DNA from: a virus | Strand: one strand, 5' to 3' | DNA: 26,860 bases | Virus record (IMG/VR): IMGVR_UViG_3300032309_000851 | Coordinates: 1 to 26,860 of that record | Shown: positions 4,763-19,063 of the stretch, piece by piece | How the letters are laid out: every line of letters begins with the position of its first letter | Position numbering within the stretch: the stretch's first letter is position 1 | Translations under genes and position numbers: made by a program | The notes under the pieces: model-generated | The model's database searches: none | What the model saw: the letters and a program-made list of their open reading frames with translations, nothing else | What the model was told of the DNA's origin: nothing

Positions 4763-5373
4763 TATGCCTCTTCCAGTGAAATAGACACGTCCCACATGTC
4801 GTAATTAGTTCCACCACGTTTTTCAACATTCCAAGAAAAATCTGTAATATACATCTCCAAAACTTCTGCGTACTGCCCTAGTTTTGCGTATTGCTCATCG
4901 CCATTATTGACATCAAGTTTGTCATAGGCAACAAACACATAAAAAGTCCCATTATGATTTTCATACCAGTCTAAAAGTTCTGCACCACCAGCACCGCCAT
5001 CAACAGTATATTCTGTACCTGTTCCAACTGGTATACCTGTAGATGAGTCAAAATTTGGTTCTCTTGAAAATGAACGTGACGGAAGCATAGTCCAAGATAC
5101 ATTAAGAACTCTTTTGTCCGCTATCCAGTATGAACGCATACGACCATTAACGGTTCTTTGACGATTCTCAATTCTTTGAAAACCAAAATCTAAAGAGCCT
5201 CTGTTGTGGTCAGAAAGAATAATAAAATCTTCTCCAACGCTGTTGTGAGTAGAGACCTCATTCCCATCTGGAACAAATTTCCCATCCACAATAGTTCCAG
5301 GGTTTTCAGAGAACAGCAACGCCTGTGGTCTAGCATAGTTTTTTCTACCTGCCATATAACTTGAATTAGCCAT
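4762..5373 (-). CDS. Distal tail (Dit-like) / minor tail protein
   Basis: A 203-residue protein right after the tape measure, the standard place of the distal tail protein that joins the tube to the tip. Visible segments are ILSDHNRGSLDFGFQRIENR (about 50-70), RMRSYWIADKRVLNVSWTML (about 78-98), GGAGGAELLDWYENHNGTFY (about 127-147) and a beta-rich end VLEMYITDFSWNVEKRG. The repeated Trp/Tyr/Phe strand pattern is what I associate with minor tail proteins at this position in actinobacterial phages. I chose ATG 5373 because AGAGGAAG lies eight bases upstream; the GTG at 5382 is too close to that site. It overlaps the tape measure stop by eight bases (ATGGCTAA). Its own stop forms TAATG with the next gene. 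Confidence 0.88.
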   Translation of the reverse strand: MANSSYMAGRKNYARPQALLFSENPGTIVDGKFVPDGNEVSTHNSVGEDFIILSDHNRGSLDFGFQRIENRQRTVNGRMRSYWIADKRVLNVSWTMLPSRSFSREPNFDSSTGIPVGTGTEYTVDGGAGGAELLDWYENHNGTFYVFVAYDKLDVNNGDEQYAKLGQYAEVLEMYITDFSWNVEKRGGTNYDMWDVSISLEEA

Positions 5374-8300
5374 TAAACGCACTTCCTCTTACTCGCTTAT
5401 TGTCAATCTGTCTAATTTTACTCATTACCGCATTTGCTATCTGGTCAGGATTTGAGTTAGAACTTACATTGACATTTATTTCATATGTATTACTATTATA
5501 CACTGAATCTCCTGCTACCGCTGAGGCTCCACCTACAAGTCCACCTTCTGCATATCTATTAATCTTATTAAGAGTAGAGGTTCCAATTCTATCTACCGCT
5601 GACTTCTTAATTACAAATTCTCCTGGGGTAAGCATAGCAGGAACCGTATCTGTTCCCATAGCATAGCCACCCATAGCAAATTTTGAAGGGACTATGCCGC
5701 CATTGGCAAATGCACCAAGCAACTTTCCATTTATAATCATTCCACCTGTAGCCGCCTTAACCATTCCGCCATTAGCAAACTGTGGAGGTACAGGTTCTGG
5801 TCTAGGCATTACAAAACCACCAAGAGCATATCTACGAACCATACCACCATTAGCAAAATTGGCAATAGCGTCTTGCTCATCTCTTTGTCTAATTCTTTCT
5901 TTTCTAGCGTTTTTTATTGTTTCTAGAAAATCTTGTACTACTGGTTTTTTATTATACATTCTGACTGGTATCTTTAATCCTAGTTCTTTGACAACAGCCC
6001 TTAACTGTTTAAGGTGTTCTTTATTTTGTACATAAAGTGACTCAATATCTTCTCTTGGAGAGTATCTAAGGAATTGTGCTTCCATATATTCTGGCAGTCT
6101 GTCAATCGTTCTGCTTGCCTGTAATGGGTCAAATGGGCTGGCTGTTTCTTTACCTTTGAATGGAACAGGAACAGTCGTTCCTAATGCAAGATAAGTATTT
6201 AAACTGTCTCCTTTGGTAATGCTGGCACCCCTTAGTGATGAGTTTTTCATAACAATTCCAACAGGTCCATAGTGTGCAGTCATCTGTGAGAATGGGTTGT
6301 AGAAGTCAGTTCCACCATCAACCTTTATAGGCTTTTGTGGTTTTAGTAGTGGTCTCTTTAACAATCCCTTTTGAACTAGATATCCATAGATAAGCCCCTC
6401 TGATTCTGGACCCATGCCTAGGTATTCATTTTCAAGTTGTTTTCTCATCAGTATGTCATCTGAACCTCTACTGTGTCCAGTATCAAACAACGTTTTTGTT
6501 TTGTTAGTTCTTAGCATATTTATTACAGAGTCAACACTTCTTCTTGTCATAATTGCTGGATTCTTAATAACTTTGTTAAAGCCTTGCTGTCTAGCGAGTT
6601 CTGACTGAACACCAGGAAGTAGTCTCATCGATTTTATTTCTTCTGGTGTAAACTCTCTACCACGTTCTTTTTCCATTCTTTTTACTACTTCATTAAATAC
6701 ACTTTCTACTTTTCTGTTTTCTGTTACTTGTTTTGCTGCTTTAATTTTTTCTACCATGTTTTTTGGCAATGACCCTATAGAATTTATAGCCTTGCTGCCT
6801 ATTGCTCCAATAGTCTTTGGAAATGCAGATACAGAGCCAGCAAAAACATCTATAGTTTTTCTAAGTTTTTGACCTCCTTGAAGTTCTTTAACACCCTGCC
6901 AGTTAGAGCCTCTCATAATAAGTTCTCCCAATGAAGTGGTATTTGTATTTACGTTTCCTCCTCTAACAGCAACAGGATGAGTAATAAGAGTAATTTGTTT
7001 TAATAGTTCTTCTTCTGAAAAATATTTTCTCCAAGGTGTTTTTAAACCTAAAATTTCTTTTGGCATTGGTAAGTCTTTAACGTCTGCTGTTTTTAGTCTA
7101 TCTAAAAGTTCAAGGAATTTCTTGTCACCAACAATGCCTTTTAGTTTTTCCATTCTTTGTATAAGTCCTTCTGGTCTACCATCAAACTTAAATCCAGCCC
7201 TAGCCCAAGCATATCCACCATCAGTAAGTCCAGCGTTCATCTTTACATTTCTAACACCAGCATTTTTAAGTAACGCCATCATCTGAGTTGTGGCTCTTTG
7301 TGCTATGTTCTTGCCCCTATACTGTTTCTCTAGTTCTATGTAAATATCTTGCATAGAGAACCATTCATCTCTTTTAAAATTATCTTTAACTGATGAAGTG
7401 CTGGCAGATTCTTTCATAAGAACTCCACTGAAATTTCCTACTTGGCTATCTTTGTAAAGTTTAGCATTGGTGTTTACAAAAACACCTTTTAATCCCGCCC
7501 ACATCTCATCTGGGACATATCCATCATCGAAAGAGAACATGTCTGCAATTTCTTCTGGCTCAGTTACTCCCTTTATGTTAAGAGATATTCCTTTTCCAAG
7601 TTTCATATTTGGAACTCTGGTTGCTAATCTTCCTAATTGAGCATCTAACTCTTTCCAAGGAACATCAACTGACGCAACGTTTCTTGTTTGCATATCAAAT
7701 CTCTTTGCATCAATCAATGTAGAAGCATCTCTTACAGTCTTCTTTATAGACTTTGAAATATTTAAATTTGAAAGTTTTGATGCTTTATCTTTTGCCAAGT
7801 TTTTTATAGTTTCTAAGAAGTTTGGCTTTGGCTCTGGTGGAGGTGGTGGTTTTCTTCTAGATTTTGTTGGAGGATTTAAATAAAGTGTTGGAGTGTTTTC
7901 TCCATATACCGCTCTCATCATGTTGGTTCCTGCAACATCAACTCTACGCCTTGGTTGGATTGGCAGTGGCTGAACAAACTGTGTAGAATCTAAATTATTT
8001 GTATTTAAAGCACCCATGCTAGACTTCATAAAACTTGGTAAATATGTTGCAGCAGACTTTGAACCTTGTTCTATTCCTACCGTGCCAAGTCTAAAGGCTG
8101 TTCTCATTGCTGCATTGCTTGCAGCCTGGACTGCTGGTGTTGCAATCTTAATTAATGGCTTGGCTACTGCTGCTACTGGCTTCATCAAAGCACCAAAGAA
8201 TTTTTGTACAGGCTTTAATGTTCCTAGCAATGGACCAAATATTCCAGCAGGAGCCATTGCTGCATTTAGAATACCTCCTGCTACATCACCCTTGCCAAAA

Positions 8301-11300
8301 GCGGTAGCAGAATCTCCAGCGAGTAAACCTGCACCAACACCTGGAAGAGCGTACCCTACATACTTTCCAGCATCAACAATTTCTTTGCTTCCAGGTTGTG
8401 ACATAGCCCAATACTGTTTTCTAGTTTGGTAGTCATTAAACTTTTTAAAATCTCCTTGGTTCCATGGAGCAGATGGGTCTTTCAAATCCCAAGACTTTAC
8501 TTTTCCACCATCTTTATAACCTACAAGCCCACCCTTAGCAAATTTTTGAATTGGGTCATTAGATGCATCCTTGAGTCTAAAGAACATCTCTCTTAATCCG
8601 CCAGTCATCCCAGACTCTAAATCTTCAGTTTTTGATGTTAGGTTCATCCATTTTGCTAGTTCTGGATTATTTTTAATCATATCTGCAATAAAAGGATTTG
8701 ACTTAGCCTTAATTGCAGCAACGTTTACAGGGTCTGATATATCTTTCTTTAAATCAAAACCTAGCATCTTTGATATTTTATTTATTTGTGGTGTAAGACT
8801 CTTTTTGTATTGTGCATTTTTTGTAAAGTTAGACAAACCTGTTGCTCCCGCTCCAAGAAAACTTACATACCTAAAGTCCTCTCTACTTATTTCAGAAAGC
8901 CCATTCTTTTTAAGAATATCGTTTGTTTGACGTAAATTAAATCCAGAACTTTTCATTCCGTCTACAAGATATCTTGTTCTTCTTGCAACTTCATCTGCAA
9001 ATAGGTATGCTGGAGAGTCTGGTGATTCAGTTGTTAATGCTGTAACTCCTAAATCAATATTTTCAAATCTTTTTGTTTTTTTGTTAAACAAAATATTCAT
9101 TCCATGAGTATCGCTATTTCCCAAAAGTGCGTTTGTTGGTAGTGCTTCGTCAATATATTTTCTTGTTGCTTTAGCAAGAGTGTTAGCAGCGTCAACCTTG
9201 TTTGGTGCTTTCTCCATATACTGTCTTAAAAACCCTGGGGAAGAAGGAATCAGGTCTGGAATAATCTTACTTGCAAGAGTTGTTTTACTAAGCATTTGAA
9301 GTTTTGGTCCACCCAAACCTAACTTAGCCCAAAGTGTTGAACCAATCAACTCTCCTGTTGTTTCAACAGTGGTATCTGGTCTTTTAACATAATACTCTGC
9401 TCCATTGATTGTTCTGAATGCCCCAGGTGTTGCACCTGCTGCCTCATCTTCTAAATGTGTTGGAGTTATCCTTAAACCCTTTTTTGGTGCTTGTAATACT
9501 AGAGGGAAGCCAAATACATCTGCTGCTTTCTTTGCTATCGTTTTTGCTGGCTTTAATCCAGGAAGTGCGGCAAGACCATAATCTACTGGGTCTGCTGGGT
9601 CAAAAACAAAATCTTTATAGCCCTGTATTGTATTCTTTGCACCAGTCTTTATCATGTCTGATGCTGTAGCATTTAGAGCGGCACTTGGATTACCACCAGA
9701 ACCAAACATGCTACTTATAACATTATTAAACCAATTCTGTGTATTACCAAATAAACTTTCGACAATACCACCATCTTTATATTTGCGGACCATACCTCCC
9801 ATAGCATAGCCCTTTGAGCAGCCTGGACATCCTGGGGTACCACAAGGACAGCCAACCATGCCACCCTTAGCAAAACCGTTATATCCTCCTAGCCTGTTAT
9901 ATGTTCCAAGTTTTGGGTTAAGCATAAATGAATTTGGAGAACCCTTAAACCAATCCAGTCTGCCTCTCTTGCCACCTTCATAGTCATTTGTCATATAGTT
10001 ATATGCGTACTGATATATAGGACTATCTTTTGGAATACTTCCTGAAATACCCAAATAATTTTCTGCATAATTTAGTTTTGCAGATGGACCCTTTGGTGGA
10101 TTAATAAGTCTGTCATATCTTTTACCAAACCCTAGTTTGCCAATCATGCCCTTTGTGACTTGTGGACCAAACTCAGAGTGCATTGCATCTACAAGGTTTT
10201 TAAATTCTTTAGGGTCAAGACCGTCCCAACCTGGAATCATTTTGCTTGTTTTTCCTAGTTGAATTAATGCCCTTGCTTTTTCTAAGTCTTGACCACCAGT
10301 GCTATCTGTGTAGATACCTCTATTAGAAAATGCTTTAGCATATGTAGCAATAGTATAAAGAATTGGATTCTTTGATGTCATCAATGTTGTGTCTTTGTTT
10401 AAGTCTGGAAGGTAAACATTTTCGGCTAGTCTCTTTCTTCCTTCCAACATCTTTTTGTATGCCTCAATAATATCTAGTGGGTTTTGATTAGCAGCAGGAT
10501 TTGGGAATGCAGTTCCATTATCATTAAACATTTTTTTGTTAGTGTTTTTATTATTTAACGGATTATATAGTTGGAAAGGACTATCAGCCCATGTATATGC
10601 AGATGGACCAGTTTTGACTTTGCCAAAAGACCCACCAACAGCAGAAGGTGCTGTCCACTGGTAGTATCCTGGATAGTTGAAAGTGTCATCAAATGGTGAC
10701 TGCTTTCCACCAGTCCAGTCAAACCATGTAGGGTCTTCTTTTCTAGGAGTTGGCTTAAATAGTTTAGCAATTCTGTTTCTATATGCCGCAACTGATTTAG
10801 GGTCAAATGGGTCTACGTTTGGGTACTGGTCTTTTCTTGGTGGCTTTTTACCTGTCATAGCATTTACAATACCGCCAGCAGCAAAGCCTAATCTGTCTGC
10901 TTGGTTCAATTTGTCGAGGGTATTTACACCAATCTTTTTTACAGCATTTGCTCTAATAACATATTCTCCATTAGAAAGCATTGCTGGAATATCATCGCTA
11001 GTTCCACTACCTGGACCTCTAATAAAACCACCGTTAGCGTTTGTTTGTGGCTCTGGGGTTTGCATTCTTTGTTCAACTAGTCTTCCATCTTGTGTAACTG
11101 CTGTTCCTGGTGGCAACAATTCTTTAAGCATTCCTTTAAGAAATCCTGATGGACCTTCTCTAAACAATGTTAATAGTGCCGTGATAGGAAATGCTGCTAA
11201 GTTTCCACCATAGTTCAAATAGCCAAGAGCATCATTTCCTTGCTGACTTTGAAGTAAAGGTCCAGTCTCTCCTTCTGGATTTTTTACTACAACTCCCTTA

Positions 11301-14300
11301 GTACTCAGGTCATTCATTTCTTTTGTTAGTTTATCAACTGCTGCTGTGTTAGCGGTCTGAGCATTTTTGAGTGGTTCTAGTTCTGCTTGTCTTGCCTCTT
11401 CAAGACCAGTCTTTTGATTGTCTAGAGATGCTTGAATATCATTATTTTGAATATCTACTGCAGCACGAGCAGCAGCAGCAATATCACCCTTATTAAGGGC
11501 TTCTGCTAATGTGAGTTGTCCCTGCTGTGATTTTGCAAGTTGGTCATTAAGTGTCTTAATTTTTTCTAGTTGCTCAATACGCTTGTTATATTTGTCATTA
11601 ATCTTTTGTTCCGTATTTGCAAGACCAGTAGAAGAACTGCTTATGTTGTCAATCTGTTTTTTAAGTTTTTGTTCTTTAGCACGGTCTAACTCAAGTTGCA
11701 CTCGTGCTTCTTCAAAGTTTTTTGTGTATGCATCTACAATTTCTTTGCCTCCATAGGCTGCGGCATCCAACGCTTCTTTTGTAGGGGAAACACCTGCTAT
11801 AATTGCTTTTTGCCAAATAGGGAAATTCAAATCATCAAGACCCTTTATTGCATGACCTATCTCAGCATTAAGAGAAATCATTGCTGCTTTCATTGCCTCA
11901 AGTCCAGAAGTTCCTGGCTGTTGTTTCGATATTGATATAAGTTTTGAATATTCTATATTAAATTCTTTTGCAGATATTTCTCCACTAGTAAACTGTCCAG
12001 ACAACGCACTCATGTAAGAAGCAATTTGTTCAGTTCCTGCTTTAATTTTTGCTATAGACTCAGGGTCAACTGGAGTAAGGTAAGTGTTATCAAATGCTCC
12101 AGTTGCTGCCTCTAGTGTTCTGCCTGTTGGATTAAGAGTACCCTCTGGACTTACGCCTTTTGCTCCTTCTGAAACTTGTGCAAAGATTTTCTTTAGATTT
12201 TTCTGCATTAATGCTTTTGTTTCTGGATTTGCTATAGAAAAAAGTTCTGGAGCAATACTGACTCTAGTCTTTTTTGCTTCTCTGGCAATGGCATCTATAA
12301 TTGCTGTAACACCTTCTGCTTCCATGCCCTGACCAAATAAGTCTGCAGACATTGCTTGCATTGCTGTCCTAAATTGAGCATCTGTAAGTTTTTGCATTTC
12401 TCTAGCAGACTCTTGATAAATATCTTTAAATTCTTGGCTTTGCTGGAATTGCTGGGCAATACTTGCCTCTTGTTTTGTTTGGTCTCCGCTTGCAATTACT
12501 GTACTTCTAACACCAGTAAGTTTTAAATCTGTTCCAAAGAAGTTATTAATCTTATCTAGTTTATTTTGAGTAATAGACAATGTTTCTACAATTGCTTCAT
12601 ATGCCTTAGAATTCTTTTTAATTAAAGGCATAATAAAACTATCAAATGCTTCAAATGCTGCTATTGCTGTACCAACATATGGAGCAAACTTTAGAAACTT
12701 TAGTCCTAACCCAATAGTTTCTTTGCTAAGTGACTTCATTCCTTTTGCAACTGCTCCAGCACCCATACCACCAAAACTTGTAAGCATTGAAGCCATACCC
12801 ATCATTTGTCCCATTTGTCCTGGAGCAAACATAGAGCCTACCGCTAATGCACCTGATGCACCAAAACTCTTATTTCTTATACTTCCTGTAAGGTCATTTA
12901 CATTTGTTCTTTGAATTCTATTTGCAATATAGTTTGGATTGGAAAGCATTTGCATTCTTTCCTTAAATGACAACTTTCTGCCAGTCATCATTTCAGATGG
13001 GCTTGTAACAGCATTTTCCATGCCTGGCTTGACAGGTTGTTGAGGGATGTTAGGATTAATAACAACCATGTTTTCTGGAAGAAAACTTTCACCTTGTGAT
13101 GCTACTCTTCTGCCTCTAGTTCTTTCAACTTGTTGTGCCTGTGATTCTCCTGGGGTAATGAAAGGACCTTGACTTGTTACTCTTCTGTTACGTTTAGTTG
13201 CAGCCTTGGCTTCTTCTTTTACTATTGCATCTGTACGAGCCTGACTATACGCTACCCCATCATCTCTACCGTCAATTGGGGCTTGGCTATGTGGACTGTT
13301 TCTTCTTGCACCATCTCTAGAAAGCATGGCAGGGTCATTCTGTGGCTTTTCTAGCACCTTCTTATGAGCACCTAAGAATGCTTCTGCCGAAACAGTTCCT
13401 TCTTTTCTAAATCTATCAGCAATTATTAAAGAAGCAAAATCATCAGCCCTTTGATGAGCACCAACCATGAGTGGAATACTTCTGTATGGAGTTACGTCAG
13501 GCGATATAGTTTGAAGTCCGTTAGCGGATTTTCCTCTTCCAGATGTTGGAACATTCATTCGTGCTGTTGGAGTTCCAGGAATAGTATATTGCATGGTACT
13601 GACTTTTCTTGCTTCGTCAAATACTTTTCTTACTCCCTGAGTTACATTTTTCCCTACCGCATCAATTTCTTGACTTATTGCTGTAGAAATAATTTGTGCA
13701 AATTTAGTATCATCGATAACTTCAGAACCTGCTTTTTCCATTTGTCGTGCAACATTGTTAGCAAATGCTTTTGCTTCTGGACTATTGGTGTCCAAACCTT
13801 GTCCAGCAAGTTGTGACATGAAGTCATCGTAAAAACTATCGACAAAACTTGCCCCTTCTAATCCAGTTAACTGACCCTTGTTAAATGATGCTGGCATACC
13901 AAAAGTAAGATTGTTCATGGCATTTATTTTAGAGGCTTGACCTAAAAGAACATTTTGTCCAGGTTCCATAAATGAAGCAACGTCTTGTGCTGAAACTTCT
14001 CGTGTTAAAGTTCCATGTGCCTTGACCATTCCCTGACTACCAGTGCTTCTTCCCTGTTTAGCAGCAGTCATGGAACTTAGTAGTTCAAACTGTGGAGAAT
14101 AAAGAACTTTATCAATATTTTTTTGTGTAAAACTAGTAATATTGTTTAAAGATTGACTTAATCCACCTAAAACTTCTTCACTAACTGCTTTGGCTGCATC
14201 TAATGCTTCTTTAATTCTTTTTGCATTTTTCTGAGTAATTCTTTCTGGCATTTCAAAACCAAATGATTCGGAATTGTTTTCTGCATAGCCAGGAAGAACA

Positions 14301-17158
14301 ATCTTCTTGCCAGCAAACAATGCACCAATAATTCTAGGATTTTTTCTAGTTGTTTCAGCATCAATGACTGCTTCGCCATTAGAAAGGTTTGCTGGAACTA
14401 GGTCATCTTTTGGACCACCAGGACCTCTGACCATGCCACCAAAAGCAAACTTTCTACCCTTGCCAGCAGCAAACAAACTTTTAAAGATTTCGTCTTTTGT
14501 TGACTTAGACATTCCAGATGCAAGTAGTGACTCAAACATTCCAAAGTTACCGCTTGCAGCGGCTGCTCGTGTCATAGTTCCAGATGTAGAACCTGCTGGT
14601 CTAGGAATACCAGTCTTTGTAATAGTAATACCGAATTCTTTTGCGGCTGCTTCCCAAACTGGAGACTTCATTCTATCTTCGCCAAGAAGAATGTTTACAT
14701 CTTTAATACCAGCCTTAGAAAGCATAGCCATTAGTTCAAATGGGTTTTTAGCAAATTCAGGGTTTCTGCCAATAGCCTCAGAAATCATTCTAGATTTTAG
14801 GTCATCACTAAGAACAGAACGCTTTGCTTTACCTTGGTTAGATGTAAACTGGAAGAATGGAATTCCAGACTGTTCTGCCATAGACATTCCCATTTGTGCA
14901 ATTCCCTGATGTGCTGTAGTAAAAGGTTGGTGTGCTCCATAAGCAATAACTGCACTAGTGCCTCTTACCTGCTGCATTAAAGATTCTGAAGGAGTTCCAA
15001 TAATACCGCCAGTAGCAAACCTAGGAAGACTATTATTGATTAGGGATTGAACTAGGTCTCTATTTTTTGAAACAGATTTTGCTGGAATAACTGCTTCACC
15101 ATTTGATAACATTGCAGGAATAGAGTCGCTAGTACCTGTTCCAGGACCAGACACAAATCCACCAGTGGCAAGTTTTTTAACTGGTCCTCTAGGTGTAACA
15201 GGAACAGCAAAAGCACTTTGTGCGGCTATAGAACGCTGATAGGCTGCTGTCAACATATCTACTGCTGCTGCTTCTGAGGTAAATGTCTGTTTTAGTTTGG
15301 AGTGAACTTGGTCAAGAGATGATGCAATAGCCGCAGCCTGAATCTGTTCTTGAGTCATATAGTTTACTTGTTCGCCAAGGCTTAGAGATGACTTTCCAGT
15401 TTTATTAAATATATCTTTCATTAGGGCAAAGCCCTTGATTACGTTTGCAACAGCGTTAGCAATAAGACCAAATGACATTAGCAGCACTGGACCAATTACA
15501 CCAGCAACAGCAACAAACTTAACAATAAAACCTTTTACACCTTCTCCAAGATTGTTAAAGTTTTTAAGAACATCTGTTCCAAAATTAATGATTGGAGTAA
15601 CAGCCTTCATAAACTGCTCTCCAACTGGGGCTAGTTGTGCTTGAAAATCAGCAATTGACTTTTGAAACTTGTATAATGGTGAAGACTCAATCTTTCCCAA
15701 TTCTCGTTGTGCCAACATGGAGAGTTCTAGGCTACTTGTTGATGCTAGTTTTAAAACTTCTGATGCTTGGCTACCCTGCTCAATTACGTTCTTGAACAAG
15801 GTTGACATACGAGCAAACTGGAATTTACCGAACAACTGTTCGATTGCCTTTGCTCTGTTTAGTGGGTCTAGTTTGTCTAGGGCTTGAGCAAAGTCTACAA
15901 CTGTTTTCTTTACGTCACCTTTGTTACCTTGAACAATTTCACGAAGGTTAATACCAAACCCTTGAAGCATCTTACTTGCAGTGTTTGTTGGATTAATCAA
16001 AGATGCAAGACCAGACTTTAGTGCGTTAGCACTTTCAGATGCGTTAATTCCACCTTCCTTCATTGCTGTAAGGAAAAATGCTAAGTCCTTTACATCTCCA
16101 CCAAGTTGCTGAATAACAGGAGCAGCCTTTGGAATTGCAATGGTCATATCCTCAATGCTTAGAACTGTTTGGTTTTCTACAGCGTTCAGGAAGTTGATGT
16201 CTTTAGAAAGTTGTTTAGTGGAAACACCAAAGGCATCTGTTAGTGAGATTGTTGTTTTTAGAGCCATCTGCTGGTCTACCCCACCAAGTACAGCAAGTCT
16301 TGCAGATGAAGCAACTTGTGCTAAAAGGTCTGCACCCTTTTTACCAGTTGCTGCTGCTGTTGCAGCCATATCCATGCTATCTTTAACAGCAACACCATAC
16401 TTCGTGTATTCTTGTGCAAGGAGTTGGATATCCTTGACCATTTTTTCGGTTTCCATGTTTGTGGTGCCAAGGTCTCCGTACACACGCTTAAGTCTAATTG
16501 CTGCTTCTTCAATTTCTTTGTAGGCTTTCATTGCTGCTCCACCCATAATTGAAAGCGGAATAGTAAAACCAACCATCAACTGTCGACCAGCCCACTGCGT
16601 GTTTTTACCAAAGTTTAGAAGATTAGTTGAGCCTTGTTTTAGCAACTGGTTTAAAAGTTGTTGTTTTTGTGCTGCAATCTGTGTTTTTGTTGCAAGGTTG
16701 TCCATGTCAAGGCTAAGGGGTCTAACCTTAATTGCTTGCATTGCACCATTGGCATCACGACCAAGTTTAATATATTGGCTTTGTAAGTCTTTTACTCTTT
16801 CACGAGCAACTTTATTTATTGTTTCAAATTCAGCCTGGAATAGTTTTCCAAAAGTTTTAGATGCACCGCCAGCATATCTAAAATACTCTCCCATCGAGAG
16901 TTTGTTTCTTTCAAGTGATGAGGTAAATTGTTCTGCAGTTGTTTTGACCTTAGTCATATTTGCAGTAAATGCACCAGTAGAGTTAATCGAGTTGATTAAA
17001 TTTTGTTGCATGTTTCTGGAGTCAGCAACATTGGCTGCCCCCATTTTAGCCATTTGTGTATGGAAGGCTGAGATTTGATTTTGAAGTAATCTGATGCTGT
17101 CCATTGCGGAAGCAGTATCAACATTAATTCTAATATTGGACTGAATATCGTCAGCCAT
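5366..17158 (-). CDS. Giant tape measure protein with embedded enzyme-like domains
   Basis: A 3930-residue tape measure protein that sets tail length, fills the tube and exits ahead of the DNA. Start ATG 17158 has AAAGAGG nine bases upstream. Layout by residue: helical N-terminus (1-190); TP901-type core (about 195-580), with a hydrophobic segment at 537-577; repeat R1 (663-708); nucleotidyltransferase-like domain (735-903); R2 (904-951); unrecognised region (950-1430); hydrophobic segments (1430-1510); coiled coil (1818-1950); R3 (2042-2086); unrecognised block (2095-2428); cysteine cluster (2437-2447); kinase-like domain (2575-2760); FAKGG motif (2873); hydrophobic stretch (2933-2990); GNAT-like domain (3195-3345); conserved phage domain (3537-3745); dense GG repeats (3768-3825); R4 (3827-3873); C-terminal SKIRQIDNKRVRG, typical of actinobacterial phage tape measures. 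It far exceeds the usual 700-2000 residues. The stop overlaps the next gene by 8 bases. Confidence 0.96.
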   Translation of the reverse strand: MADDIQSNIRINVDTASAMDSIRLLQNQISAFHTQMAKMGAANVADSRNMQQNLINSINSTGAFTANMTKVKTTAEQFTSSLERNKLSMGEYFRYAGGASKTFGKLFQAEFETINKVARERVKDLQSQYIKLGRDANGAMQAIKVRPLSLDMDNLATKTQIAAQKQQLLNQLLKQGSTNLLNFGKNTQWAGRQLMVGFTIPLSIMGGAAMKAYKEIEEAAIRLKRVYGDLGTTNMETEKMVKDIQLLAQEYTKYGVAVKDSMDMAATAAATGKKGADLLAQVASSARLAVLGGVDQQMALKTTISLTDAFGVSTKQLSKDINFLNAVENQTVLSIEDMTIAIPKAAPVIQQLGGDVKDLAFFLTAMKEGGINASESANALKSGLASLINPTNTASKMLQGFGINLREIVQGNKGDVKKTVVDFAQALDKLDPLNRAKAIEQLFGKFQFARMSTLFKNVIEQGSQASEVLKLASTSSLELSMLAQRELGKIESSPLYKFQKSIADFQAQLAPVGEQFMKAVTPIINFGTDVLKNFNNLGEGVKGFIVKFVAVAGVIGPVLLMSFGLIANAVANVIKGFALMKDIFNKTGKSSLSLGEQVNYMTQEQIQAAAIASSLDQVHSKLKQTFTSEAAAVDMLTAAYQRSIAAQSAFAVPVTPRGPVKKLATGGFVSGPGTGTSDSIPAMLSNGEAVIPAKSVSKNRDLVQSLINNSLPRFATGGIIGTPSESLMQQVRGTSAVIAYGAHQPFTTAHQGIAQMGMSMAEQSGIPFFQFTSNQGKAKRSVLSDDLKSRMISEAIGRNPEFAKNPFELMAMLSKAGIKDVNILLGEDRMKSPVWEAAAKEFGITITKTGIPRPAGSTSGTMTRAAAASGNFGMFESLLASGMSKSTKDEIFKSLFAAGKGRKFAFGGMVRGPGGPKDDLVPANLSNGEAVIDAETTRKNPRIIGALFAGKKIVLPGYAENNSESFGFEMPERITQKNAKRIKEALDAAKAVSEEVLGGLSQSLNNITSFTQKNIDKVLYSPQFELLSSMTAAKQGRSTGSQGMVKAHGTLTREVSAQDVASFMEPGQNVLLGQASKINAMNNLTFGMPASFNKGQLTGLEGASFVDSFYDDFMSQLAGQGLDTNSPEAKAFANNVARQMEKAGSEVIDDTKFAQIISTAISQEIDAVGKNVTQGVRKVFDEARKVSTMQYTIPGTPTARMNVPTSGRGKSANGLQTISPDVTPYRSIPLMVGAHQRADDFASLIIADRFRKEGTVSAEAFLGAHKKVLEKPQNDPAMLSRDGARRNSPHSQAPIDGRDDGVAYSQARTDAIVKEEAKAATKRNRRVTSQGPFITPGESQAQQVERTRGRRVASQGESFLPENMVVINPNIPQQPVKPGMENAVTSPSEMMTGRKLSFKERMQMLSNPNYIANRIQRTNVNDLTGSIRNKSFGASGALAVGSMFAPGQMGQMMGMASMLTSFGGMGAGAVAKGMKSLSKETIGLGLKFLKFAPYVGTAIAAFEAFDSFIMPLIKKNSKAYEAIVETLSITQNKLDKINNFFGTDLKLTGVRSTVIASGDQTKQEASIAQQFQQSQEFKDIYQESAREMQKLTDAQFRTAMQAMSADLFGQGMEAEGVTAIIDAIAREAKKTRVSIAPELFSIANPETKALMQKNLKKIFAQVSEGAKGVSPEGTLNPTGRTLEAATGAFDNTYLTPVDPESIAKIKAGTEQIASYMSALSGQFTSGEISAKEFNIEYSKLISISKQQPGTSGLEAMKAAMISLNAEIGHAIKGLDDLNFPIWQKAIIAGVSPTKEALDAAAYGGKEIVDAYTKNFEEARVQLELDRAKEQKLKKQIDNISSSSTGLANTEQKINDKYNKRIEQLEKIKTLNDQLAKSQQGQLTLAEALNKGDIAAAARAAVDIQNNDIQASLDNQKTGLEEARQAELEPLKNAQTANTAAVDKLTKEMNDLSTKGVVVKNPEGETGPLLQSQQGNDALGYLNYGGNLAAFPITALLTLFREGPSGFLKGMLKELLPPGTAVTQDGRLVEQRMQTPEPQTNANGGFIRGPGSGTSDDIPAMLSNGEYVIRANAVKKIGVNTLDKLNQADRLGFAAGGIVNAMTGKKPPRKDQYPNVDPFDPKSVAAYRNRIAKLFKPTPRKEDPTWFDWTGGKQSPFDDTFNYPGYYQWTAPSAVGGSFGKVKTGPSAYTWADSPFQLYNPLNNKNTNKKMFNDNGTAFPNPAANQNPLDIIEAYKKMLEGRKRLAENVYLPDLNKDTTLMTSKNPILYTIATYAKAFSNRGIYTDSTGGQDLEKARALIQLGKTSKMIPGWDGLDPKEFKNLVDAMHSEFGPQVTKGMIGKLGFGKRYDRLINPPKGPSAKLNYAENYLGISGSIPKDSPIYQYAYNYMTNDYEGGKRGRLDWFKGSPNSFMLNPKLGTYNRLGGYNGFAKGGMVGCPCGTPGCPGCSKGYAMGGMVRKYKDGGIVESLFGNTQNWFNNVISSMFGSGGNPSAALNATASDMIKTGAKNTIQGYKDFVFDPADPVDYGLAALPGLKPAKTIAKKAADVFGFPLVLQAPKKGLRITPTHLEDEAAGATPGAFRTINGAEYYVKRPDTTVETTGELIGSTLWAKLGLGGPKLQMLSKTTLASKIIPDLIPSSPGFLRQYMEKAPNKVDAANTLAKATRKYIDEALPTNALLGNSDTHGMNILFNKKTKRFENIDLGVTALTTESPDSPAYLFADEVARRTRYLVDGMKSSGFNLRQTNDILKKNGLSEISREDFRYVSFLGAGATGLSNFTKNAQYKKSLTPQINKISKMLGFDLKKDISDPVNVAAIKAKSNPFIADMIKNNPELAKWMNLTSKTEDLESGMTGGLREMFFRLKDASNDPIQKFAKGGLVGYKDGGKVKSWDLKDPSAPWNQGDFKKFNDYQTRKQYWAMSQPGSKEIVDAGKYVGYALPGVGAGLLAGDSATAFGKGDVAGGILNAAMAPAGIFGPLLGTLKPVQKFFGALMKPVAAVAKPLIKIATPAVQAASNAAMRTAFRLGTVGIEQGSKSAATYLPSFMKSSMGALNTNNLDSTQFVQPLPIQPRRRVDVAGTNMMRAVYGENTPTLYLNPPTKSRRKPPPPPEPKPNFLETIKNLAKDKASKLSNLNISKSIKKTVRDASTLIDAKRFDMQTRNVASVDVPWKELDAQLGRLATRVPNMKLGKGISLNIKGVTEPEEIADMFSFDDGYVPDEMWAGLKGVFVNTNAKLYKDSQVGNFSGVLMKESASTSSVKDNFKRDEWFSMQDIYIELEKQYRGKNIAQRATTQMMALLKNAGVRNVKMNAGLTDGGYAWARAGFKFDGRPEGLIQRMEKLKGIVGDKKFLELLDRLKTADVKDLPMPKEILGLKTPWRKYFSEEELLKQITLITHPVAVRGGNVNTNTTSLGELIMRGSNWQGVKELQGGQKLRKTIDVFAGSVSAFPKTIGAIGSKAINSIGSLPKNMVEKIKAAKQVTENRKVESVFNEVVKRMEKERGREFTPEEIKSMRLLPGVQSELARQQGFNKVIKNPAIMTRRSVDSVINMLRTNKTKTLFDTGHSRGSDDILMRKQLENEYLGMGPESEGLIYGYLVQKGLLKRPLLKPQKPIKVDGGTDFYNPFSQMTAHYGPVGIVMKNSSLRGASITKGDSLNTYLALGTTVPVPFKGKETASPFDPLQASRTIDRLPEYMEAQFLRYSPREDIESLYVQNKEHLKQLRAVVKELGLKIPVRMYNKKPVVQDFLETIKNARKERIRQRDEQDAIANFANGGMVRRYALGGFVMPRPEPVPPQFANGGMVKAATGGMIINGKLLGAFANGGIVPSKFAMGGYAMGTDTVPAMLTPGEFVIKKSAVDRIGTSTLNKINRYAEGGLVGGASAVAGDSVYNSNTYEINVNVSSNSNPDQIANAVMSKIRQIDNKRVRGSAFNG
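5540..5680 (-). repeat. Tape measure repeat R4 (FAMGGYAMGTDTVPAMLTPGE)
   Basis: Residues 3827-3873: FAMGGYAMGTDT then VPAMLTPGEFVIKKSAVDRIG and a helix TSTLNKINRYAEGG. It is the fourth copy of the unit, preceded by a dense run of short repeats (FANGGMV, YALGGFV, FANGGMV, ATGGMI, FANGGIV) from residue 3768. Confidence 0.85.
5924..6550 (-). other. Conserved phage domain of unknown function near the tape measure C-terminus
   Basis: Residues about 3537-3745. Features are LFDTGHSRGSDD, R-x-x-x-E, LIYGYL, YGPVGIVMKNSSLRG, then KGDSL (Gly3650), and YMEAQFLRY (Glu3693, Gln3695) with a DIESLYV strand. From memory this combination resembles a domain found in phage structural and polymorphic-toxin-like proteins, perhaps with an ADP-ribosyltransferase-type fold. 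I cannot confirm that and make no enzymatic claim. Confidence 0.5.
7124..7576 (-). other. GNAT acetyltransferase-like domain within the tape measure protein
   Basis: Residues about 3195-3345. The strand IYIELEKQYRGKNIAQRATT carries a Q-x-x-G-x-(G/A)-like acetyl-CoA loop (Gln3279, Gly3282, Ala3286) leading into a helix. It is followed by the strand NVKMNAGLTDG and GYAWARAGFKFDG (from Gly3315), the Y/W-A-x-x-G-F ending common in this fold and in phage-encoded GNAT-like inserts. The second glycine of the loop is Asn3284, so cofactor binding is uncertain. Confidence 0.6.
8879..9436 (-). other. HipA/PI4-kinase-like domain within the tape measure protein
   Basis: Residues about 2575-2760. A beta-strand Lys (Lys2592 in YYVKRP) is followed by a candidate helix-C Glu (Glu2599 or Glu2603), LWAKLGLGGPKLQML, then LLGNSDTHGMNILFN with the D-x-H-x-x-N catalytic loop (Asp2683, His2685, Asn2688), and ENIDLG with a candidate metal-binding Asp2702. 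This order and spacing are those of HipA-type Ser/Thr kinases and PI3/4-kinase-like enzymes. All residues expected for catalysis appear present. Substrate unknown. Confidence 0.7.
9818..9850 (-). other. Cysteine cluster CPCGTPGCPGC in the tape measure protein
   Basis: Residues 2437-2447 contain four cysteines spaced C-x-C-x4-C-x-x-C, set between FAKGGMV (2429) and YAMGGMV motifs. This is compatible with a small metal site or disulfides. Cysteine is otherwise very rare in this protein, which makes the cluster stand out. Confidence 0.6.
10901..11035 (-). repeat. Tape measure repeat R3 (NGGFIRGPG...MLSNGEYVI)
   Basis: Residues 2042-2086: NGGFIRGPGSGTSDD then IPAMLSNGEYVIRANAVKK and a helix IGVNTLDKLNQ. 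It is followed by FAAGGIV (2092), which opens the unrecognised block 2095-2428. Confidence 0.85.
14306..14449 (-). repeat. Tape measure repeat R2 (FAFGGMVRGPG...NLSNGE)
   Basis: Residues 904-951: FAFGGMVRGPGGPKDD then LVPANLSNGEAVIDAETT. It is a divergent copy of R1 that starts exactly where the nucleotidyltransferase-like domain ends, so R1 and R2 bracket that domain. Confidence 0.85.
14450..14956 (-). other. Nucleotidyltransferase-like domain within the tape measure protein
   Basis: Residues about 735-903. GAHQPFTTAHQ (741-751) aligns position by position with the GTFDPxTNGH signature of CoaD/NadD-type cytidylyl/adenylyltransferases: Gly741, Pro745, Thr747 and His750 are kept, but the Gly before His is Ala749. 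About 110 residues later SGTMTR (859-864) matches the second signature, (I)SxTxxR, followed by a helix AAAASGNFGMFESLL as in that superfamily. Both spacing and order fit the Rossmann-like nucleotidyltransferase fold. The substrate is unknown. Catalytic ability is plausible but uncertain because of the Gly-to-Ala change. Confidence 0.72.
15035..15172 (-). repeat. Tape measure repeat R1 (GGFVSGPG...IPAMLSNGE)
   Basis: Residues 663-708: LATGGFVSGPGTGTSD then SIPAMLSNGEAVIPAKSV. This is the first of four divergent copies of a roughly 45-residue unit known from many tape measure proteins. A further RFATGGIIG at residue 714 leads straight into the nucleotidyltransferase-like domain. Confidence 0.85.
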
Positions 17159-17188: not shown

Positions 17189-17506
17189 CTAGAGCAGACC
17201 ACCGAGGGCGGAATCTCCTAGTTTGATGCCAGATGCTTCTTCCACAATCTTATAAACAGTTGGAAGGTCTAGAAGGTCTTCTAGTGCTTTCAGGTCTGTT
17301 GCGATTTCTGGCTTGTACTGCTTTAGAGCAATTTGTACACACTCCATCAACAAGTTCATCGACTTGTCGTTGTCATCTGCAACCTTTGAAATCTCATCAA
17401 ATTTCTTCATAAAATCACGAAGCAATGAAATTTTCAATGGTCTAATGGTAACTGTAGTTCCATCAATAAGAGTAATATTCTTCTCTTCATTAATAGTTGT
17501 TGTCAT
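17189..17506 (-). CDS. Second tail assembly chaperone, G-only paralogue
   Basis: A 105-residue protein that aligns over nearly its whole length with residues 8-94 of the preceding chaperone. Shared blocks include PLKI...R-(D/E)-F-M-x-K-F-D, E-C-x-x-I-A-(L/M)-K-Q-x-x-P-E, and D-L-x-T-x-Y-K-(I/V)-x-E-x-A-x-G-I-K. It stops right after this domain (LGDSALGGLL) and has no T-like part in any nearby frame. It is therefore equivalent to the short, abundant gpG-type product that is normally made from the same start as the fusion. It has a strong AAGGAGGA eight bases upstream and its own promoter-like TGCTATAAT. Both are stronger initiation signals than those of the fusion gene, which would fit an excess of G over G-T. 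The tape measure gene begins 30 bases downstream. Confidence 0.9.
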   Translation of the reverse strand: MTTTINEEKNITLIDGTTVTIRPLKISLLRDFMKKFDEISKVADDNDKSMNLLMECVQIALKQYKPEIATDLKALEDLLDLPTVYKIVEEASGIKLGDSALGGLL

Positions 17507-17513
17507 TTGTCCT

Positions 17514-17523
17514 CCTTATAAGG
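17514..17523 (-). other. Perfect 10-base palindrome overlapping the ribosome-binding site
   Basis: CCTTATAAGG is a perfect palindrome whose right arm forms the first half of the AAGGAGG Shine-Dalgarno of the second chaperone gene. It could be a protein-binding site or chance. As a hairpin it would have no loop, so an RNA structure role is unlikely. Confidence 0.25.
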
Positions 17524-17533
17524 TCATAGATAA

Positions 17534-17542
17534 ATTATAGCA
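17534..17542 (-). promoter_or_regulatory. Extended -10 promoter-like element TGCTATAAT
   Basis: TGCTATAAT is located between the two chaperone genes, 27 bases before the ATG of the second. It leaves a leader of about 20 bases that carries the AAGGAGGA ribosome-binding site. It is identical in sequence to the element before the first chaperone and could give the G-only chaperone its own message. Confidence 0.5.
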
Positions 17543-17545
17543 TAA

Positions 17546-18268
17546 TTAGGCTTTATCGTTTAGAACTTGGTAGTCTAAGCCATTACCAATTCCAAATCCT
17601 GCCTGTTGTGCCCTTATTCCTTGCAATGAAGTAATGTCGTTAGGATTACCATTACCAATACCACTAGTCTTAGCGGCTACCCTGGCTTTCATGGCTTCCC
17701 AAGGGTCTTCTTCTTGTTTTCCAGATGCTTCATCCAGGTCAATGCCTTTTAGTGATGCTGTAAATTTTTTGTCTTGATAATCCATCTCTCTTTTTTGCTC
17801 TAAGATAGACATTAGTTCTGCCAAACATATTGAAGATTCCAACTCATCATAGTTTTTCCAAATACCCAAAAGAAATGCCTCTGATTCTAATTTATTTAAA
17901 TCTAAATCTTCCCATCCAGACTTAGATGAACTTTCTTCTTGTTTTGATATATCTTGTACTTCTTCTTTTTCTTCTACTTCAGTATCCATCTTAATACCGC
18001 CAGCATGTTCAATAACCTTGTACATTGTCTTTAAATCAAAATTGTCTTCAAACTTTTCTACCGTGTCTACTTCTGGATAGAACTGTTTCATTGCTATAGT
18101 CGCACACTCCGTAAGTATTTCAATAATCTCGTCTTCGTCTTGTGCCGTTTTTACGGAATCAAACTTAGTCATAAACTCCCTCATATGCTTAATCTTTAGT
18201 GGAGAAACTTCTATCTTTTTTCCATAAATTGTTTTGACATAGGCTATATCGTATATTTTTGTAGGCAT
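17546..18268 (-). CDS. Tail assembly chaperone, G-T type encoded in one frame
   Basis: A 240-residue cytoplasmic chaperone that should bind the tape measure and recruit tail-tube subunits. Residues 8-94 are a G-like domain (SPLKIKHMREFMTKFD, ECATIAMKQFYPEVD, DLKTMYKVIEHAGGIKM). A Glu/Ser/Lys-rich linker (95-117) leads to a T-like domain (118-198: LESEAFLLGIWKNYDELESS, CLAELMSILEQKREMDYQDK, EDPWEAMKARV). The Gly/Asn-rich tail (199-240) is probably flexible. In most siphoviruses the T part is reached by a -1 ribosomal frameshift; here both parts are in one uninterrupted frame, and I see no convincing slippery heptamer at the junction. ATG 18268 has no ribosome-binding site and a -10 element 6 bases upstream. 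A paralogue of the G domain follows 39 bases later. Confidence 0.9.
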   Translation of the reverse strand: MPTKIYDIAYVKTIYGKKIEVSPLKIKHMREFMTKFDSVKTAQDEDEIIEILTECATIAMKQFYPEVDTVEKFEDNFDLKTMYKVIEHAGGIKMDTEVEEKEEVQDISKQEESSSKSGWEDLDLNKLESEAFLLGIWKNYDELESSICLAELMSILEQKREMDYQDKKFTASLKGIDLDEASGKQEEDPWEAMKARVAAKTSGIGNGNPNDITSLQGIRAQQAGFGIGNGLDYQVLNDKA

Positions 18269-18274
18269 ACATAT

Positions 18275-18283
18275 ATTATAGCA
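18275..18283 (-). promoter_or_regulatory. Extended -10 element TGCTATAAT, leaderless-type promoter
   Basis: TGCTATAAT starts 6 bases after the terminator stem. The TATAAT ends exactly 6 bases before the chaperone ATG at 18268, so the expected transcription start coincides with the A of ATG. No Shine-Dalgarno lies between them. This is the spacing seen for leaderless genes in actinobacteria. Confidence 0.6.
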
Positions 18284-18289
18284 AAAGAA

Positions 18290-18315
18290 ACTGCCCCAGG
18301 AATCCCTAGGGCAGT
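18290..18315 (-). terminator. Strong hairpin terminator after the major tail gene
   Basis: ACTGCCCTAGG and CCTGGGGCAGT pair over 11 positions (one T-G) around a GATT tetraloop and are followed on the minus strand by TTCTTTTGC. This is a textbook factor-independent terminator. It would limit transcription from the abundant tail-tube message into the chaperone and tape measure genes. Confidence 0.85.
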
Positions 18316-18343
18316 CTCATCAATATTCAGTTATTATTTAGTT

Positions 18344-19063
18344 TTAGAATGAACGGTCGATAATCTTACCGTACGCACCCTGAGCATCAGGAAGCAAACG
18401 GAATTCTACATCGAACATTGTTGCTGTATCACGCTTTGCGGACAAAGTTACGTTCTGTACAGAAACTGCACGGTAAGCAACATAGATACGCTCTTCGTTT
18501 GGGTTAGTCGTTGCTCCAAGGCTTGGACCAACAGCAACCAAGCCACGCTCGACTGGGTAGTCACCTAGTTCTCCTGAAAGGATATCTACATAACCACTTG
18601 ATGCGTTTGCTGCTGCAGTAATTGTTGTAGTTGCAGTTCCAGTTGTAGTTCCTGTGTCTGAGTAACTTGAAATAGTTAAACCCAAAACACCACCAGTAGA
18701 TACTGTTGCTGCCTTCTGAGCAATTGCTAGAAGCAGGTTTTCCAGAGTTGCCTCTGCAAGACTTGTTCTTAGAGTAACTGTCATTCCAGACTTGAACAGA
18801 CGTGCTGTGTCTAGAAGTTGGTCAACTTGAACGTCTCCAAATGTTGGAGTGAATGTTAGGTCTAGACCATTGCTTGTATATCCAACGTTTGTAACCTTTG
18901 CACCCCATCTGTCTGTTAGAGTAGTCTTGTAAGATTCTCCAGCAACTGTACCTGGTAGGCTTGTTGGAGTCAAAGAGTCTCCAATTGTCTGACCAGTTTT
19001 TGATACGAATAGTGCCGCTGCACCAACAATAATGTTAGTGGCGGTTCCTCTTGTATATGCCAT
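18344..19063 (-). CDS. Major tail (tube) protein
   Basis: A 239-residue protein expected to polymerise into the non-contractile tail tube. The evidence is its position just before the chaperones and tape measure, its size, and its beta-rich sequence with the tail-tube pattern GLDLTFTPTFGDVQVDQLLD (about 65-85) followed by MTVTLRTSLAEATLENLLLA. The C-terminal NVTLSAKRDTATMFDVEFRL strand is the kind of edge strand that contacts the next ring. A Thr/Ala/Gly-rich stretch (about 125-165) could be a surface loop. The ATG at 19063 has only a weak site upstream (GATGGTG), so a different feature of the roughly 50-base leader may aid translation. A hairpin terminator follows. No contractile sheath gene is present, which supports siphovirus morphology. 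Confidence 0.93.
   Translation of the reverse strand: MAYTRGTATNIIVGAAALFVSKTGQTIGDSLTPTSLPGTVAGESYKTTLTDRWGAKVTNVGYTSNGLDLTFTPTFGDVQVDQLLDTARLFKSGMTVTLRTSLAEATLENLLLAIAQKAATVSTGGVLGLTISSYSDTGTTTGTATTTITAAANASSGYVDILSGELGDYPVERGLVAVGPSLGATTNPNEERIYVAYRAVSVQNVTLSAKRDTATMFDVEFRLLPDAQGAYGKIIDRSF

Follow-up and report, generated by a model that had tools for sequence, protein, structure and literature searches.

Two tail assembly chaperones from two genes: apparent replacement of a programmed frameshift in uncultured freshwater-type phages

How are the short and long forms of a tail assembly chaperone supplied by a phage in which the G-like and T-like domains are encoded in a single reading frame, and in which a second gene encodes a G-like domain by itself? 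Few recoding events in tailed phages are as conserved as the frameshift of the tail chaperone genes, and the ratio of its two products is thought to be essential. For phage lambda, the molar ratio of G to GT is given as about 30:1 in PMC5009743, where the frameshift is also described as widely conserved. An earlier interpretation of the present locus (hereafter, the sequence-only reading) proposed that gene duplication takes the place of the frameshift, and that the ratio could be set by the strength of the promoters and ribosome-binding sites. This proposal was analyzed further, within the context of related loci.

Gene organization and homology of the two chaperones

The window (the whole stretch of DNA analyzed, a 26.9-kb virus record) carries on its minus strand a virion module with portal, capsid and additional head/neck genes, followed by the gene for the major tail protein. 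Two genes, designated gene 1 and gene 2, are located between the major tail protein and tape measure genes, as tail assembly chaperone genes are, and the start of the tape measure gene lies ~30 nt past the end of gene 2. The corresponding features are as follows.

18344..19063, minus strand: major tail protein gene, the upstream neighbour
17546..18268, minus strand: gene 1, long-form tail assembly chaperone of 240 aa with G and T fused in one frame
17975..18268, minus strand: G-like domain at the N-terminus of the gene 1 product, residues 1-98
17549..17935, minus strand: T-like domain at the C-terminus of the gene 1 product, about residues 112-240, homologue of the -1-frame T ORF of the frameshift-type relatives
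17189..17506, minus strand: gene 2, short form of 105 aa, a paralogue consisting of G only, nearest to the ancestral G of the frameshift-type relatives
5366..17158, minus strand: tape measure protein gene, 3930 aa, the downstream neighbour and expected client of the chaperones

The sequence-only reading had described a G-like and a T-like domain within one frame of gene 1, and a paralogue of the G-like domain alone in gene 2. The positions of both open reading frames, both domain labels and the paralogy were borne out: residues 1-96 of gene 1 and gene 2 share 43% identity over 96 aa (E 2e-24). In a comparison of gene 1 with phage sequences, 130 records were matched, of which 127 were those of Streptomyces phages. 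In the latter, the first and last parts of gene 1 map to two adjacent genes, annotated either as tail assembly chaperone or as hypothetical. The T-like label is right, since gene 1 shows homology in its C-terminal part to the T frame of the Streptomyces phages, the products of which are annotated there as tail assembly chaperones. Gene 2 also matches Streptomyces phage proteins with this annotation.

Three Streptomyces phages of the Stanwilliamsviridae (Coruscant, Braelyn and Gilson) carry homologous G and T in the same gene order, with about 41-44% identity. In contrast to the window, their T is in the -1 frame, and they possess one G only. No X_XXY_YYZ heptamer occurs in the G/T overlap of Coruscant and Braelyn (loci L001 and L002), where the homologous position is occupied by CCCGGAA; in both phages, T is annotated as a separate gene, with no frameshift join.

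No Pfam family was detected for either chaperone, and a profile search against the sequences of the PDB found no chaperone. In PHROGs, the strong matches were to unnamed families only, and gene 2 has weak matches to tail chaperones. For the structural model of gene 2 (pLDDT 74), the HK97 chaperone 2ob9 was second in the list of matches (Z 4.4, 88 residues, rmsd 5.3), with a Z-score so low that it can arise by chance, and the lactococcal p2 ORF12 was listed below it, too weakly for proof. In the model of the fused gene 1 product, the G part reached a pLDDT of about 90. A Foldseek search of this model against the PDB gave nothing meaningful; against a library of viral folds, its matches included entries named tail assembly chaperone and, weakly, the GT protein of N15.

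Two states of the locus among relatives

Related loci were pooled from six IMG/VR scans, together with the records of three Streptomyces phages and a single contig from a metagenome assembly, for a total of 402 redundant and 243 distinct loci, each database scan contributing at most its best 80. The loci were scored by profile HMMs of G and T, for the frame that T occupies with respect to the G upstream of it and for the presence or absence of a second G downstream. This search of relatives for the same two-gene arrangement, which the sequence-only reading had suggested, revealed two states among the 243 distinct loci (best 80 per scan). In 192 of them, G and T form one ORF and a second G gene is present; in 41, T is in the -1 frame and there is never a second G; and 10 are cut by the end of the contig. 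Within the same set, no intermediates were found: fused loci without a second G, where the contig was long enough, and frameshift loci with a second G both numbered zero. Because a single change is enough for the tree described below, these counts lack phylogenetic independence, and no weight as evidence is given to the Fisher value. The two-gene chaperone system belongs to a large group of uncultured freshwater-type phages.

As the window is a metagenomic virus contig, an assembly artefact or a local indel might have mimicked an in-frame fusion. However, the same arrangement occurs in about 190 distinct loci, which form one clade on the tree, and this explanation retains next to no credibility.

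The scan of genome contigs yielded a single relative, a frameshift-type locus (L209:3689-4294). Its contig of 110 kb had been assigned to the MAG of an uncultured cyanobacterium, and may be phage DNA that ended up in the bin. In another locus (L263:3422-3800), the second G gene was matched as two pieces in different ORFs, which may point to an indel or a sequencing error.

The two states were further compared for frameshift signals. Among the frameshift-type loci (95% clusters), an in-frame X_XXY_YYZ heptamer was present in the short G/T overlap in 27 out of 30, where about 5 would be expected. These heptamers are mostly CCCAAAC or CCCAAAT and occur at the same place, in DPN(L) codons just after the G domain. 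In the fused loci, the DPN(L) slippery codons are gone, and an in-frame X_XXY_YYZ at the G/T junction was found in 23 of 166 loci, mostly as A-runs, versus 34 expected from codon shuffles. Whereas a lambda-type frameshift combines T in the -1 frame with an X_XXY_YYZ heptamer, the fused loci have T in frame 0 and no enriched heptamer. The end of gene 2 bears a slippery heptamer in only 3 of 158 loci and shows no T-like extension, the alternative frames past its stop being short (median 4-7 codons in 158 loci). Two findings would have contradicted the sequence-only reading by its own account, namely a working frameshift in gene 1 and a T-like extension of gene 2, and neither was seen in the sequences.

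It might nevertheless be supposed that gene 1 still gives a G-only protein, by means of a hidden frameshift, internal termination or proteolysis, and that gene 2 is an accessory extra. The 23 fused loci with a heptamer near the junction could be cited in its favour, and proteolysis would be invisible in sequence. However, these 23 fall below the codon-shuffle expectation, as opposed to the excess in the frameshift relatives, and the slippery codons of the latter have disappeared. Moreover, gene 2 is kept in every fused locus with room for it, and is the better conserved copy. A hidden G-only product of gene 1 is consequently considered very unlikely.

In a tree of T and tape measure sequences combined (46 rows, rooted on Streptomyces phages), the fused loci form one clade (support 100/99) within a grade of frameshift-type loci, such that one change suffices. 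One change is likewise needed for T alone and for the tape measure alone (196 and 176 rows, respectively). The major tail protein tree alone needs three, and a single fused clade is not rejected in this case (AU p 0.39). By these phylogenies, the gene pair appears to have replaced the programmed frameshift once.

In the tree of the G domains, all of those from gene 2 (G2) form one clade nested among the frameshift-type G, the nearest of which are L279, L303, L081 and L040/L041. All of those from gene 1 (G1) are placed in a separate, long-branched and fast clade. Since a single clade of G1 and G2 is neither supported nor rejected (p 0.46), the timing of the duplication is uncertain. In 1436 of 1500 pairs, conservation is higher for G2 than for G1 (median identity 69% vs 50.5%), and the dN/dS values are 0.12 for G2 and 0.17 for G1. 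Given the nested position and the slower change of G2, gene 2 is a conserved G of the ancestral type, descended from the ancestral G, and gene 1 is the changed, diverged copy. The sequence-only reading is refined in this respect.

The same trees bear on the possibility that gene 2 has another job, for example as an accessory tail or tape-measure factor, the fused protein being the sole chaperone. In its favour, the two G domains, now at 43% identity, have long been separate; however, gene 2 is the slow copy within the frameshift-type G, and it was gene 1 that did the changing. In phage TP901-1, a forced permanent G-T fusion (gpGfsT) results in particles that look intact but do not infect (PMC4493119), which also argues against a fused protein acting alone. 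Gene 1 shares the permanent fusion with gpGfsT. In contrast, the latter is a laboratory mutant without a separate G, which is supplied here by gene 2. The non-infectious outcome in TP901-1 would explain the occurrence of the fused gene only together with a second G. Another job for gene 2 is hardly probable on this evidence, and gene 2 is treated below as the short chaperone.

Upstream elements and start signals

The elements detected upstream of the two genes in the window are as follows.

18287..18318, minus strand: intrinsic terminator hairpin, downstream of the major tail protein gene and ahead of gene 1
18275..18280, minus strand: extended -10 element (TGCTATAAT) of gene 1, TATAAT, 6 nt before the ATG
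17534..17539, minus strand: extended -10 element (TGCTATAAT) of gene 2, TATAAT, 27 nt before the ATG
17510..17517, minus strand: Shine-Dalgarno (SD) sequence of gene 2, AAGGAGGA

Both TATAAT elements and AAGGAGGA are conserved in relatives. Gene 2 keeps the ancestral layout, consisting of TGnTATAAT, a leader of ~27 nt and AGGAGG. A perfect TATAAT, usually preceded by TG, is present in 153 of 160 gene 2 loci and in 29 of 30 frameshift-type G, and the distance from the -10 to the start is 26-27 nt in both. The sequence-only reading had opposed a weak or leaderless start of gene 1 to a strong SD at gene 2, and this contrast proved to be conserved: the SD core was found in 154/160 of gene 2 and in 29/30 of the frameshift-type G, versus 0/164 of gene 1. 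Pairing with the anti-SD is weaker at gene 1 than at gene 2 in 157 of 158 loci. For the starts of the tape measure and major tail protein genes, the use of the leftmost start made the SD counts unreliable, and these were left out.

In gene 1, a perfect TATAAT is present in only 41 of 164 loci, and the median distance between the -10 and the start is 6 nt. A TANNNT ending 5-9 nt before the start was observed in 161 of 164 loci, compared with 1-20 at other offsets, and the commonest hexamer six nt ahead of the start is TATACT. The start codon of gene 1 is thus located at the expected transcription start, and a leaderless transcript is predicted. Neither chaperone promoter has a recognizable -35, and a sigma-70 scan requiring a -35 listed neither of the -10 elements. 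With regard to start codons, TTG is used in 17 of 30 frameshift-type G, and ATG in nearly all of the fused loci (152 of 160 for gene 2, 160 of 164 for gene 1).

A terminator hairpin is present just upstream of gene 1 in all of the fused loci (164/164) and of the frameshift-type G in all of theirs (30/30), but upstream of gene 2 in only 19/157. Consequently, gene 2 would be transcribable from both promoters, and gene 1 mainly from its own.

From the upstream signals we infer a protein ratio in which the short form would exceed the long, and initiation strength is a well-supported candidate for the factor that sets it. Alternatively, the two genes may be present as described, with their ratio set otherwise, i.e., by mRNA decay, protein stability or timing, or with equal expression. 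Leaderless mRNAs are translated well in some bacteria. Since their efficiency depends on the host, the "weak" start of gene 1 is not guaranteed. However, the presence or absence of the SD, the strength of the -10 and its spacing have all been kept across very diverged loci, and a ratio set by other means is rather unlikely. Initiation strength is thus retained as the probable determinant in the scheme below.

Proposed mechanism and comparison with known systems

As a whole, the observations are best explained by a locus that very probably makes two tail assembly chaperones from two genes, a pair that replaced the frameshift. Gene 1 would give rise to the scarce long form (G joined to T), and gene 2 to the abundant short form (G). 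If lambda is a guide, the tape measure protein would be coated by many G subunits, and the major tail protein brought in via T by a few G-T subunits. The ancestor would have possessed one gene, from which both forms were produced by a -1 frameshift at a slippery site of the CCCAAAY type. In one lineage, the promoter-G unit would have been duplicated, T fused in frame to the upstream copy, and the slippery site lost, although this exact order of duplication and fusion is one that we infer. The downstream copy would have retained the ancestral promoter, leader and Shine-Dalgarno sequence, and the upstream copy would have gained a weaker promoter, placed for a probably leaderless transcript. It is further proposed, with moderate confidence, that this widespread clade swapped recoding for initiation control: tandem promoters, one leaderless and weakened and the other with the ancestral leader and SD, would set the ratio, and the separated copies would let the long-form G specialize for the start of tail assembly.

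The proposed pair resembles the lambda-type G/GT system in its place between the major tail protein and tape measure genes, in the roles expected of the proteins, and in the N-terminal domain common to short G and long G+T. In contrast to lambda, the long form here is one continuous ORF, and the short form is a separate paralogue with its own start signals.

The two-gene chaperones of T4-like phages are presumably those of T4 genes 26 and 51, the products of which (gp26 and gp51) gave an alignment at E 2e-6 when compared as one pair. It is reported in PMC10274946, citing Vladimirov 2022, that some T4-like phages have a short gene plus a separate fused long gene. In light of that report, the present locus would not be the first two-gene case, which again refines the sequence-only reading. 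As in the window, the short and long genes are separate and complete, the long one carries the domain of the short one, and there is no frameshift. Unlike T4, in which genes 26 and 51 are on opposite strands, the genes described here form a tandem pair shortly ahead of the tape measure gene. Moreover, the T4-like phages are an unrelated group, whereas here close relatives keep the frameshift, and leaderless and SD starts are set against each other. The nesting of the fused clade within frameshift-type relatives suggests an origin independent of the T4 arrangement.

The principle is therefore known in kind. The new aspects are a case in another phage group, with the switch visible within one locus family, and the conserved leaderless-versus-SD pattern, which may offer a means of setting the ratio. 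In the literature searched, no earlier report was found of the replacement of a frameshift by a gene pair in a siphovirus-type phage. Since both states persist in close relatives, the switch can be compared and rebuilt, and the conserved contrast of leaderless and SD starts is open to measurement. The property under selection would be the supply of both products in a given ratio, rather than the frameshift as such. For annotators, the absence of a slippery site need not mean the absence of a chaperone.

The product of the tape measure gene, the presumed client of both proteins, matches the Pfam family PhageMin_Tail (PF10145, E 1e-24), which alone was recognized by Pfam in this 3930-aa protein. 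By eye, kinase-like 'GNSDTHGMNILF', nucleotidyltransferase-like 'FTTAHQG' and GNAT-like 'QYRGKNIAQRATTQMM' stretches are apparent, and these enzyme-like stretches lie between repeated motifs such as 'GPGTGTSDSIPAMLSNGEAVIPA'.
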